Below, one piece after another: positions 20,907-24,109 of a stretch of 64,000 bases of DNA; position 1 is the stretch's first letter, and each line of letters opens with the position of its first letter. The notes under the pieces are model-generated. The model searched no databases, was not told the origin of the DNA, and saw nothing but the letters and a program-made list of their open reading frames with translations. Source of the DNA: Spirochaeta cellobiosiphila DSM 17781. GTDB lineage: Bacteria; Spirochaetota; Spirochaetia; DSM-17781. The stretch is from NCBI RefSeq assembly GCF_000426705.1, contig NZ_KE384555.1, positions 220,362 through 284,361 on the forward strand, written 5' to 3'. Position numbers and translations under genes: made by a program.

Positions 20907-22718
20907 ATGCCTAGGTATTCAAATCATCATCACACATCAATCCAATCTGCTGAGAAACTCGCTGATACTATATTAAAAAAGGTATATGGTGCTGCTAGAA
21001 AAGAAAAATGGGGAACTGCTTTTATGCAAATAGCATGGACAGCTGGACCTGTTACCTACCTGGGATTACAAGGGGGGTATTATGTAGCTTATGGCAAGAC
21101 TGCATCTCCAGAAGTATTTATATATTTTGCTGGATATACTGTCATTGCAGGTATATTTGCTTTAATCTCTAAGTTTATTTACAACATGACAGCAGGGGAT
21201 AGTAGAGAGGAAGAAAGAAATTCCCTGGAAAGGGTTTTTAACCTTCTGCCCAAAAGAATTGCAGAAATCAGGGATTTGCAATTGACAAATCTTGATGAAA
21301 AGGGCCGTAACATATTAGGGGCAAAATACCTGTTGGAGAATCCTGATGCAGATGCCTATGCCTTAGCAACAGCTATGTACGATCTAACAAATGATCTAGA
21401 AATATCAGAGATTATGGCCCATGCCGAGACTTATCGTCAAAATGGACTCTTATCTAGAGCAAAAGAAAAGAGAGAACGGATAAAAATCCTGCTGGAACCA
21501 CACATGGAGCAAATAAAAGCATCCTCCGAAGAAGTGACACGCTTAATATTGAACAGAGTAAATGGTGTAGGACCGGATAAAAATGTTGGAAGAATGAGAA
21601 CCAGAGGGTTTATTTCCAGGGTCTTATCGGCAGCTGAGAATGATGATTTAAATTTAATGACGCTTTCAGATTCTGAAGAAGTGTGTATCTTGGCCTTTGA
21701 GCTTATATGCAGTAGACAATATCCTTACTTTCATGCCCATTATATCGGGCACAAAGCCTATACAATCGCAGCGAAGAGATTGGAGATAGCAAGAAGAGAG
21801 TATGGATCAGCCATATATAAACGCAATAGTTACTTAAGAATACTGGCAGAACGACTGTACCGAGAAAGTGCAAAGAATACTCATATAAAGGGTATTCATA
21901 AGGTTATAGCCTCTCTGCCCAATATTAGATCATCCCAAATACTTCAAGAGAAAATTGTAGCAACACTCAAGGAAAATATCCATAATAAAAGCTACTCAGC
22001 TTCAAAGTTAAGAGCAGATTTAGATATATATCAGAGACTTCGTCGAGCAGGTTTAAAAACAAAACAGGCACATAAAAAATTCCAGACTACATGGATTAAT
22101 TATGTAAAGATGCTTCAGGAAATGGATCGTAGTGAACACCCCCTTTCAAAACTACATCTGATGCATAAAAAGAATAAAGGAAAGGGAGTATACCTAACAG
22201 AAAAATCCATAGGTCTGCACCAAAAGCAGATAATACCTATGGTTCAACTTTTCGAACAAAAACTGGAAGAATTCACATTAGAACATGAAACAGCAGAGGT
22301 CAAAGTAAATGATCAAAAAGAACTAGCCGTAGATTTACTTTTGATTATAGATAAATATATTCCCTTAAGCCCACCCAGAACACAACGAACTATTGAAGAT
22401 ACACGGTCAGCGTACTTAAATTATATTTTCCGTGACACCAGTATATCCATGAGGCAACCTTGGGGATTATCATTAATCTCAGGTATAAAATATTCACGCC
22501 AACAGGCAATACATAGCGTTATAAGTAGACTCATTGAATATGATCGCTTAAAGCTAACAAAAGAGGATATCCCCTATCTTATAGAAAACTATGATGGAGA
22601 TATGACTTTTCTAGAAGAACAGATGAATCAGGAACAACAAAGCTGGACATCTGATTTTGATATCCCGGAACCTATTGTCGTTCCCGTCTTAAATGAAATT
22701 AAAAGGCAAGACTCTTGA
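20907..22718 (+). CDS. Unrecognised 603-residue membrane-anchored protein
   Basis: I do not recognise a family. The first 40 residues are polar and include HHH. Two hydrophobic segments follow (about 40-62 and 70-92), and then about 510 mostly helical, strongly charged residues that look cytoplasmic. One stretch (about 240-330) is rich in Tyr, His and Arg, and the last 90 residues form an acidic region with a Pro/Val-rich end. No enzyme motif, Walker box or metal site is apparent. No Shine-Dalgarno precedes ATG 20907. It is divergent from the TRAP-binding-protein/kinase pair and lies 34 bases before the Thr leader peptide. It may be a lineage-specific structural or signalling protein. Confidence 0.75.
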   Translation: MPRYSNHHHTSIQSAEKLADTILKKVYGAARKEKWGTAFMQIAWTAGPVTYLGLQGGYYVAYGKTASPEVFIYFAGYTVIAGIFALISKFIYNMTAGDSREEERNSLERVFNLLPKRIAEIRDLQLTNLDEKGRNILGAKYLLENPDADAYALATAMYDLTNDLEISEIMAHAETYRQNGLLSRAKEKRERIKILLEPHMEQIKASSEEVTRLILNRVNGVGPDKNVGRMRTRGFISRVLSAAENDDLNLMTLSDSEEVCILAFELICSRQYPYFHAHYIGHKAYTIAAKRLEIARREYGSAIYKRNSYLRILAERLYRESAKNTHIKGIHKVIASLPNIRSSQILQEKIVATLKENIHNKSYSASKLRADLDIYQRLRRAGLKTKQAHKKFQTTWINYVKMLQEMDRSEHPLSKLHLMHKKNKGKGVYLTEKSIGLHQKQIIPMVQLFEQKLEEFTLEHETAEVKVNDQKELAVDLLLIIDKYIPLSPPRTQRTIEDTRSAYLNYIFRDTSISMRQPWGLSLISGIKYSRQQAIHSVISRLIEYDRLKLTKEDIPYLIENYDGDMTFLEEQMNQEQQSWTSDFDIPEPIVVPVLNEIKRQDS

Positions 22719-22743
22719 TTAATAAGAAAAAAGTCATTAACAT
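22715..22743 (+). promoter_or_regulatory. Candidate sigma-70 promoter of the threonine attenuator
   Basis: TTGATT (22715-22720) and TAACAT (22738-22743) are separated by 17 bases, four of six matches to each consensus box. Transcription would start near 22750, only a few bases before the leader ATG at 22753. That would make the leader peptide nearly leaderless and would explain why no ribosome site is seen. Read-through from the preceding gene is the alternative. Confidence 0.35.
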
Positions 22744-22752
22744 CGCTAGAAT

Positions 22753-22818
22753 ATGAATTACATTAATATAAATTTTACAACGACTACGACAACTCTAACT
22801 ATACCCATTGCGGGCTAG
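22753..22818 (+). CDS. Threonine-rich attenuator leader peptide
   Basis: A 21-codon frame, too short for ordinary gene calling: Met and seven further residues (NYININF), six consecutive Thr codons (22777-22794, using ACA, ACG and ACT), then LTIPIAG and TAG. Seven of 21 residues are Thr. It resembles the E. coli threonine operon leader peptide in length, in its Thr run and in ending with Ala-Gly. A stop codon at 22747 fixes ATG 22753 as the earliest in-frame ATG. The Thr run overlaps the 5' arm of the protector hairpin and the stop codon lies in its 3' arm, as attenuation requires. The role is inferred; the reading frame is seen directly. Confidence 0.8.
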   Translation: MNYININFTTTTTTLTIPIAG

Positions 22819-22864
22819 AGGTCGTACAAATATATACGAAAACCCCGCATAGCGGGGTTTTTTT
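22785..22864 (+). promoter_or_regulatory. Ribosome-mediated transcription attenuator upstream of the ThrRS-like gene
   Basis: Three alternative structures can be drawn. Protector: TACGAC (22785-22790) with GTCGTA (22821-22826), CTCTA (22793-22797) with TAGAG (22816-22820), and CCC/GGG inside. Antiterminator: TCGTA (22822-22826) with TACGA (22835-22839), and GCGGG (22810-22814) with CCCGC (22844-22848). Terminator: 22839-22864. The protector and antiterminator share 22810-22826; the antiterminator and terminator share 22839-22848. Ribosome stalling on the Thr codons would block the protector's 5' arm, free the antiterminator and allow read-through, so expression should rise when charged tRNA-Thr is scarce. 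No T-box consensus is present. Confidence 0.8.
22839..22864 (+). terminator. Attenuator terminator hairpin
   Basis: A perfect GC-rich stem (CCCCGC 22843-22848 with GCGGGG 22852-22857, loop ATA), extended by A-T pairs, is followed by seven T residues (22858-22864). It is a textbook rho-independent terminator, placed 49 bases before the synthetase ATG on the same strand and too far from the preceding gene's stop (120 bases) to be simply its terminator. Confidence 0.9.
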
Positions 22865-22912
22865 AGGTCCTGACCTATAACCTTGTTGTGCGTGACAATA
22901 AGGAGCATTATT

Positions 22913-24109
22913 ATGAAAAACCATTTACAATTAGGGAAGGAACTAGACCTCTTTATACAATCACCAACTGTAGGTAAAGGTTTGCCATTACTAACAGAAA
23001 AAGGTAATTGTATTAAGAGAAGCATGATTAAATTGGTAGAAGAACTAGAGGAAAAGAATGGCTATCTCTTGACTAGTACTCCCTTAATGGCAAGTAAAAA
23101 CCTGTATGAGATATCAGGACACTGGGACCTGTATAAAGAAGACATGTTTGTACTGGAAGCCGGTCCAGAAGACTATTATGCTTTGAGGCCTATGACATGT
23201 CCTTTTCAATTCCAATTATATCTTAGAAAAAAACATAGTTATAAAGAACTGCCTATTCGTTATTCCGAAACTTCTACTTTATTTAGAAATGAACCTACAG
23301 GATCTATTCATGGACTAAATAGGATTAGGCAATTCACTTTATCTGATGGACATATTATCTGCAGATTTGACCAAATTGAAAAAGAATTTCTTAATTGCCT
23401 GGATATTATTAATACCATAATGGCTAAACTAGACTTTAAAAACTTCTGGTTTAGATTCTCAACAAGAGATCCTCAAAAGAAAAACAAATATATAGAAAAT
23501 GACTCAGCTTGGGAAAAATCTGAGTCCTTACTAAAATCCTTTTTGGTAAAACATAATATTTCCTATTCTGATGGAAAAGGAGAAGCCGCATTTTATGGGC
23601 CTAAACTGGATATCCAAATGAAAGATGCTGAAGGGCGCGAAGAAACTCTTTTTACATTACAACTAGACTTTGCACTAGCAGAACGTTTCGGAATGACCTA
23701 CACTGATGAAAACAACAAAGAAGAGCATCCGTATATAATCCATAGATCCAGCATTGGGTGTTATGAGCGGACATTAGCCCATTTATTGGAAATTCATCAA
23801 GGTGCCCTCCCCTTTTGGTTAATGCCTACACAGATAATGATAATACCTGTGAATGATAAGCACCTTGATTATGCACTTAAAGTACAGGATTTTTTAACTG
23901 ATAGTAAATTTCGAGTTGAAATAGATAAGAGAACCGAGACCTTGGGTAAACGCATACGCGAAGCAGTAAAAATACGTACTCCCTATCTGATCATTATTGG
24001 TGAGAAAGAAATAGCAACAAAGACAATTAATGTAAGAAAAAGAGGACAGAAGGATTCTACCCAAATAACTTTAGATCAGTTCAAACAGATGTTAAAGAAT
24101 CAATACTGA
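22913..24109 (+). CDS. Threonyl-tRNA synthetase-like protein lacking TGS and editing domains
   Basis: A 398-residue class II synthetase, against about 640 for standard ThrRS. It begins at the catalytic core (LGKELDLF, equivalent to about E. coli residue 245), so the TGS and editing domains are absent. Motif 2 (FRNEPTGSIHGLNRIRQFT) and motif 3 (IHRSSIGCYERT, Arg286) are intact. All three zinc ligands that select threonine are present: Cys96, His147 and His277, matching E. coli Cys334, His385 and His511. CPGH is changed to CPFQ and FTQDD to FTLSD. The C-terminal anticodon-binding domain is complete. ATG 22913 has AAGGAG; an upstream in-frame TTG does not. The threonine attenuator suggests a starvation-induced second enzyme. 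Confidence 0.9.
   Translation: MKNHLQLGKELDLFIQSPTVGKGLPLLTEKGNCIKRSMIKLVEELEEKNGYLLTSTPLMASKNLYEISGHWDLYKEDMFVLEAGPEDYYALRPMTCPFQFQLYLRKKHSYKELPIRYSETSTLFRNEPTGSIHGLNRIRQFTLSDGHIICRFDQIEKEFLNCLDIINTIMAKLDFKNFWFRFSTRDPQKKNKYIENDSAWEKSESLLKSFLVKHNISYSDGKGEAAFYGPKLDIQMKDAEGREETLFTLQLDFALAERFGMTYTDENNKEEHPYIIHRSSIGCYERTLAHLLEIHQGALPFWLMPTQIMIIPVNDKHLDYALKVQDFLTDSKFRVEIDKRTETLGKRIREAVKIRTPYLIIIGEKEIATKTINVRKRGQKDSTQITLDQFKQMLKNQY

Follow-up and report, generated by a model that had tools for sequence, protein, structure and literature searches.

In Escherichia coli, the thrABC attenuator (thrL, RF00506) combines a Thr-rich leader peptide with alternative antiterminator and terminator structures; in that leader Thr codons are interspersed with Ile codons, and the genes controlled are biosynthetic. 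In pheST of the same species, an operon for an aminoacyl-tRNA synthetase (aaRS) is attenuated through a leader peptide with many codons for the amino acid that the enzyme charges, and attenuation of aminoacyl-tRNA operons was reportedly surveyed by Lopatovskaya and colleagues in 2010. Leader peptides are known for trpS and leuS in Streptomyces (PMC1262725). In Bacillus, second aaRS copies among the hisS paralogues are under a His leader peptide and another hisS gene has a T-box (PMC2965389). For thrL-thrS of Streptomyces lividans, a leaderless leader peptide has been proposed, with two Thr codons and without a clear terminator (PMC8079986), and leaderless poly-Cys attenuators are described for mycobacteria (Canestrari 2020, cited in PMC9031893; PMC4633059). 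Conditional second threonyl-tRNA synthetases (ThrRS) include Bacillus subtilis thrZ, which has tandem T-boxes (PMC2494555), and Anabaena T2, which is Zur-controlled, impaired in editing and proofread in trans by T1 (PMC4787780).

The locus analysed here lies in a stretch of 64,000 nucleotides from Spirochaeta cellobiosiphila DSM 17781 (the window), in which a short frame with a run of Thr codons and an intrinsic terminator precede the gene for a truncated ThrRS paralogue, ThrRS2 (Table 1). It is like thrL in its Thr-rich leader peptide and its alternative antiterminator and terminator, and unlike thrL in that the gene encodes a ThrRS and a leaderless start is predicted; against Rfam Thr_leader (RF00506) the leader scores 24.0 bits over the full model (gathering cut-off 55) and is not a member, and membership of Phe_leader was rejected in the same way, below the cut-off. 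Both pheST and the window have a leader peptide on an aaRS, but pheST concerns Phe, a housekeeping enzyme and Proteobacteria. Bacillus hisS likewise has a second aaRS copy under a leader peptide and another copy under a T-box, but the amino acid is His, the organisms are Firmicutes, and the available part of the paper does not mention a leaderless start (PMC2965389). The S. lividans locus shares the leaderless leader peptide 5′ of thrS but has no more than two Thr codons, lacks a clear terminator and is actinobacterial (PMC8079986); it is a published, though weak, candidate for a thrS leader. The mycobacterial leaders also have a leaderless short open reading frame (ORF) in which a codon run for a single amino acid attenuates downstream genes, whereas the amino acid is Cys, the genes are others, and conserved intrinsic terminators are lacking there (PMC1262725). 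As conditional second ThrRS enzymes, thrZ and T2 resemble ThrRS2, although T2 keeps a degenerate editing domain (PMC4787780) and ThrRS2 is without any.

Thus, leader peptides on aaRS genes and leaderless attenuators were already known, and what is new here is the predicted leaderless start of Thr leaders on spirochaete ThrRS. The original prediction, that leader-peptide attenuation of a ThrRS gene in such an organism looks undescribed, was too strong in view of the S. lividans thrS leader (PMC8079986) and other aaRS leader peptides (PMC2965389, PMC1262725); nevertheless, the searches of open-access papers turned up no account of threonine attenuation at the ThrRS gene of a spirochaete.

The two threonyl-tRNA synthetases of the genome

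ThrRS2 matches TIGR00418 with 482 bits (cut-off 384) at profile positions 171-564 only, and its Pfam domains are tRNA-synt_2b (class II core) and HGTP_anticodon (anticodon binding) and nothing else. The TGS and editing (N2) domains are absent from it, profile positions 1-170 being missing. Three of its residues, C96, H147 and H277, which match the zinc ligands known for ThrRS, are invariant in the alignment, and by this comparison the enzyme looks competent.

The same genome encodes a full-length ThrRS behind a T-box (RF00230; Rfam cut-off 93, score in Table 1), so that the ThrRS gene in the window is a spare. The gene had been predicted to encode a ThrRS, and it does; it is, however, a truncated second copy rather than the housekeeping enzyme, which is the one with the T-box. 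No match to the T-box model RF00230 was found on the ThrRS2 leader loci (L009 and L039). An early T-box survey found none in six spirochaete genomes (PMC2494555). Upstream of the leader, at 20907-22718 on the plus strand, there is a 603-aa ORF with no Pfam or NCBIfam match.

Table 1. Features of the ThrRS2 locus (window positions), the T-box of the main ThrRS, and the leader peptides of relatives
Feature	Position	Strand	Details
Predicted -35 hexamer	22715..22720	+	TTGATT; best sigma70-like site, 17-nt spacer
Predicted -10 hexamer	22738..22743	+	TAACAT; best sigma70-like site, ends 9 nt 5′ of leader ATG
Leader peptide ORF	22753..22818	+	ATG to TAG, 21 codons, no Shine-Dalgarno; MNYININFTTTTTTLTIPIAG, then stop
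Six consecutive Thr codons	22777..22794	+	ACA ACG ACT ACG ACA ACT
Seventh Thr codon	22798..22800	+	
Leader stop codon	22816-22818	+	
Protector stem	22786..22825	+	22786-22797 pairs 22816-22825; minimum free energy (MFE) fold of full-length window leader
Antiterminator	22809..22849	+	TGCGGG 22809-22814 pairs CCCGCA 22844-22849, enclosing small hairpin 22822-22826/22835-22839
Intrinsic terminator	22839..22864	+	AAAACCCCGC-ATA-GCGGGGTTTTTTT; 10-bp stem, 3-nt loop, U tract
ThrRS2 Shine-Dalgarno	22900..22905	+	AAGGAG
ThrRS2	22913..24109	+	truncated ThrRS paralogue of 398 aa, reduced to its catalytic and anticodon-binding domains
T-box riboswitch (RF00230) of main ThrRS	L001:3278-3537, contig C24	-	106.6 bits
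GWB1_60_80 leader			MNQHCNNTTTTTRTFPRRGACFAVS
PLM2.Bin13 leader			MAFIPALRHTGILTTTTTFLTMRGRAMSPA
G477 leader			MNRYLLKNITNAPATTTTTTEICERGQHCKGILVR
G493 leader			MINRILITTTTTQTTTGL
G402 leader			MNKNIEFTITTTQTTTKI

Thr leaders in the window and in other spirochaetes

The short frame, its six consecutive Thr codons, the seventh and the end of the frame had all been placed correctly to the base. Of 5000 dinucleotide-shuffled versions of the 450-nt upstream region, none contained seven Thr codons in eight and one contained six. Elsewhere in the 3.95-Mb genome, six ACN codons in a row are present at one other site, which is a low-complexity tandem repeat. Compared with shuffles, the fold of the leader region is better by 3.8 SD.

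Conservation of the Thr codons in relatives had been set beforehand as a refuting check, and it was found in five further genomes. The nearest homologue of ThrRS2, from Spirochaetes bacterium GWB1_60_80 (55-56% identity), is also truncated and has its own Thr leader and terminator. A scan of a genome collection and whole-genome searches of the class added the truncated enzymes of PLM2.Bin13 and G477 and the full-length enzymes of G493 and G402, each of these spirochaete ThrRS genes again with a Thr leader. All six leaders follow one design: a cluster of 5-8 Thr codons is followed by a segment that can pair with the 5′ arm of the terminator, and this by the terminator itself. In a scan of 176 ThrRS genes, at least six Thr in eight codons were found at these six alone, each time together with a terminator. 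The recurrence of this arrangement in relatives in which the surrounding DNA cannot be matched makes it very likely, on comparative grounds, that the arrangement is real.

A second, full-length ThrRS is encoded elsewhere in the genomes of GWB1_60_80, G477 and PLM2.Bin13 (= G525), with no Rfam T-box in the stretch examined at any of the three; in G493 and G402, a single ThrRS passed the search threshold, and it is this gene that has the leader. A maximum-likelihood tree groups the four truncated enzymes in one clade (87/97) within an 11-row spirochaete clade (96/96) and places the four main ThrRS enzymes elsewhere. As no Thr leader was seen on two full-length members of this 11-row clade (L154 and L157), the history of the leader could be either one gain with losses or two gains. 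Before the full-length ThrRS of L157 (G504) there is an inverted repeat, CCTGCAAAAA...TTTTTGCAGG, without a T run, and this gene may be under some other control.

No new carrier was found in a second draw from the class, nor in the families and order of the member genomes. Among Clostridia and other relatives (80 loci minus the leader-bearing spirochaetes L070 and L116), no leader-like run adjoins the gene, and many of these ThrRS loci have a T-box motif. Two candidates were rejected: a distant Thr run in L123, which does not qualify as a leader, and a five-Thr match upstream of the main ThrRS of PLM2.Bin13 (L198), which falls in what looks like an upstream reading frame and lacks a terminator. 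On the minus strand of L040 (G073), the open frame called mechanically for a related full-length ThrRS has LTLTMTSAKTISLTTTTGITLTYPS at its N-terminus, which is rich in Thr and in frame with the enzyme; possibly, this is a fused, translational version of the same sensor, or else a wrong start.

Outside the Thr run, the leader peptides have nothing evident in common, and their lengths range from 18 to 35 residues. This tells against a functional small protein to which the terminator belongs, a reading which the conserved position of the short ORF might suggest and which we regard as highly implausible. In the sister leaders of G493 and G402, six Thr codons are in register and three of them differ synonymously, whereas eight codons have been replaced with codons for other residues, one of these at a Thr position. 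Synonymous change within the Thr codons, together with amino acid change in the codons that flank them, is what selection for reading as threonine predicts.

Terminator, antiterminator and protector

An intrinsic terminator lies between the leader and the ThrRS gene in all six loci, and in each it is strong on its own. The segment 3′ of the Thr run is complementary to the 5′ arm of the leader's own terminator (6/6). That arm reads CTCCAG in the sister genomes G493 and G402 and CCCCGC in the other four, and the antiterminators change along with it. Column-wise covariation calls for an alignment, which the six leaders do not allow beyond the Thr run; complementarity was used instead to test for co-change. 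Against dinucleotide shuffles, single duplexes gave P values of 0.0005-0.14 and the six leaders a combined Fisher P of 1.4e-8, which is somewhat optimistic since the sisters G493 and G402 are counted as independent. For the window by itself, the antiterminator pairing reaches P = 0.07 when judged on duplex energy and 0.018 when judged on fold gain. Computation shows the elements in the sequence, that they are conserved, and how they pair.

When a ribosome stalled in the Thr run was modelled on a transcript ending at the 5′ arm of the terminator, the antiterminator formed in 6/6 leaders; with the modelled ribosome at the stop codon, the terminator formed in 6/6. Full-length RNA at equilibrium gave the terminator in 5/6 even with the stalled ribosome, so that antitermination, like that of classical attenuators, has to be a kinetic effect. 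In four of the six leaders, that of the window among them, a partial transcript free of ribosomes favours the antiterminator over the protector. Thus, of the three stems originally predicted as mutually exclusive, the terminator and the antiterminator were borne out and the protector was not favoured in these four; in the models, the protector appears the weakest, i.e., least secure, element of the attenuator. The terminator stem of the window is flanked by A and T tracts (22839-22861) and is also terminator-like on the minus strand.

The short frame could be incidental, with a terminator that is constitutive or governed by a protein or by another RNA sensor. The strength of the isolated terminators would suit this, as would the fact that the tie between Thr codons and read-through is drawn from sequence. 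Yet Thr runs with synonymous change stand in six of six leaders that are otherwise unalignable, terminator and antiterminator change together, and the leader matches neither the T-box nor any other Rfam family at its cut-off; an incidental frame is accordingly a very improbable explanation. Ribosome-mediated attenuation at the ThrRS2 leader, as judged by this comparison, is strongly supported.

Predicted transcription start, proposed switch and meaning

In the six leaders, the distances from the end of the best sigma70-like promoter to the ATG are 9, 7, 7, 7, 8 and 7 nt, the window being the first of these; among 962 other ORF starts, called mechanically in the same loci, the best site lies at 7-9 nt in 3.0%. 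There is no usable Shine-Dalgarno sequence at five of the six leaders. The sixth, that of PLM2.Bin13, has a clear Shine-Dalgarno-like stretch, but this is 5′ of the -10 and so outside the predicted transcript. A Shine-Dalgarno sequence precedes each of the six ThrRS genes. Promoters so close to the ATG and the lack of a usable Shine-Dalgarno make leaderless translation of the leader peptide probable, with the start site predicted at or within about 3 nt before the leader AUG. The original prediction had the anatomy of the leader right but missed this probable leaderless start. In G493, the promoter of the Thr leader is immediately preceded by a tRNA gene (Rfam, 64.4 bits; L151:3540-3613, minus strand).

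Perhaps the same attenuator has a normal 5′ UTR instead, with transcription starting further upstream and internal initiation without a Shine-Dalgarno, in which case the leaderless reading would be wrong. The promoters are predictions, the -10 of the window (TAACAT) is weak and 9 nt from the ATG (as compared with 7-8 nt in the other five leaders), and the window has a competing, weaker promoter-like site, TTAACA-N16-TACATT (22737-22764), a start from which would exclude the leader ATG. Such a 5′ UTR is nonetheless unlikely when set against the placement of the best promoter in 6/6 leaders and the absence of a usable Shine-Dalgarno-like site, even in PLM2.Bin13.

With a leaderless start preferred, transcription, stalling, termination and induction can be inferred to proceed as follows. 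Transcription would start at the leader AUG or a few bases from it, as the placement of the promoter suggests, and the 5′ end would be bound directly by a 70S ribosome. With ample Thr-tRNA, this ribosome would reach the stop codon and cover the 5′ strand of the antiterminator, and the terminator, being left free to form, would end transcription. When Thr-tRNA is scarce (through threonine starvation, or because the main ThrRS is failing or inhibited), the ribosome would stall in the Thr run, TGCGGG would capture CCCGCA, no terminator would form and ThrRS2 would be made. This is the logic first proposed for the locus (low charged tRNA-Thr, stall, antiterminator, expression), and the comparison of the six leaders supports it. 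We are highly confident that the element is a ribosome-mediated, Thr-responsive transcription attenuator, which would keep an editing-less spare ThrRS off until charged tRNA-Thr falls.

The findings are evidence, of a comparative kind, that spirochaetes have leader-peptide attenuation of the classical type, on ThrRS and with a predicted leaderless start. In the genome of the window there are two ThrRS paralogues with two different RNA sensors of tRNA-Thr charging, a T-box and a leader peptide, which makes it possible to study what a sloppy spare synthetase is kept for and under which conditions it comes into use. Possibly, and we give it about an even chance, some spirochaetes evolved a leaderless poly-Thr stalling switch that raises an editing-deficient ThrRS only when threonylation fails, beside a full-length ThrRS (with the T-box in the organism of the window); two RNA sensors of the same tRNA would then grade the response, and the accurate enzyme would proofread the mischarged Ser-tRNA-Thr of the spare in trans. 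The arrangement is also relevant to the question of whether Shine-Dalgarno-independent attenuation is a general design or an actinobacterial oddity.
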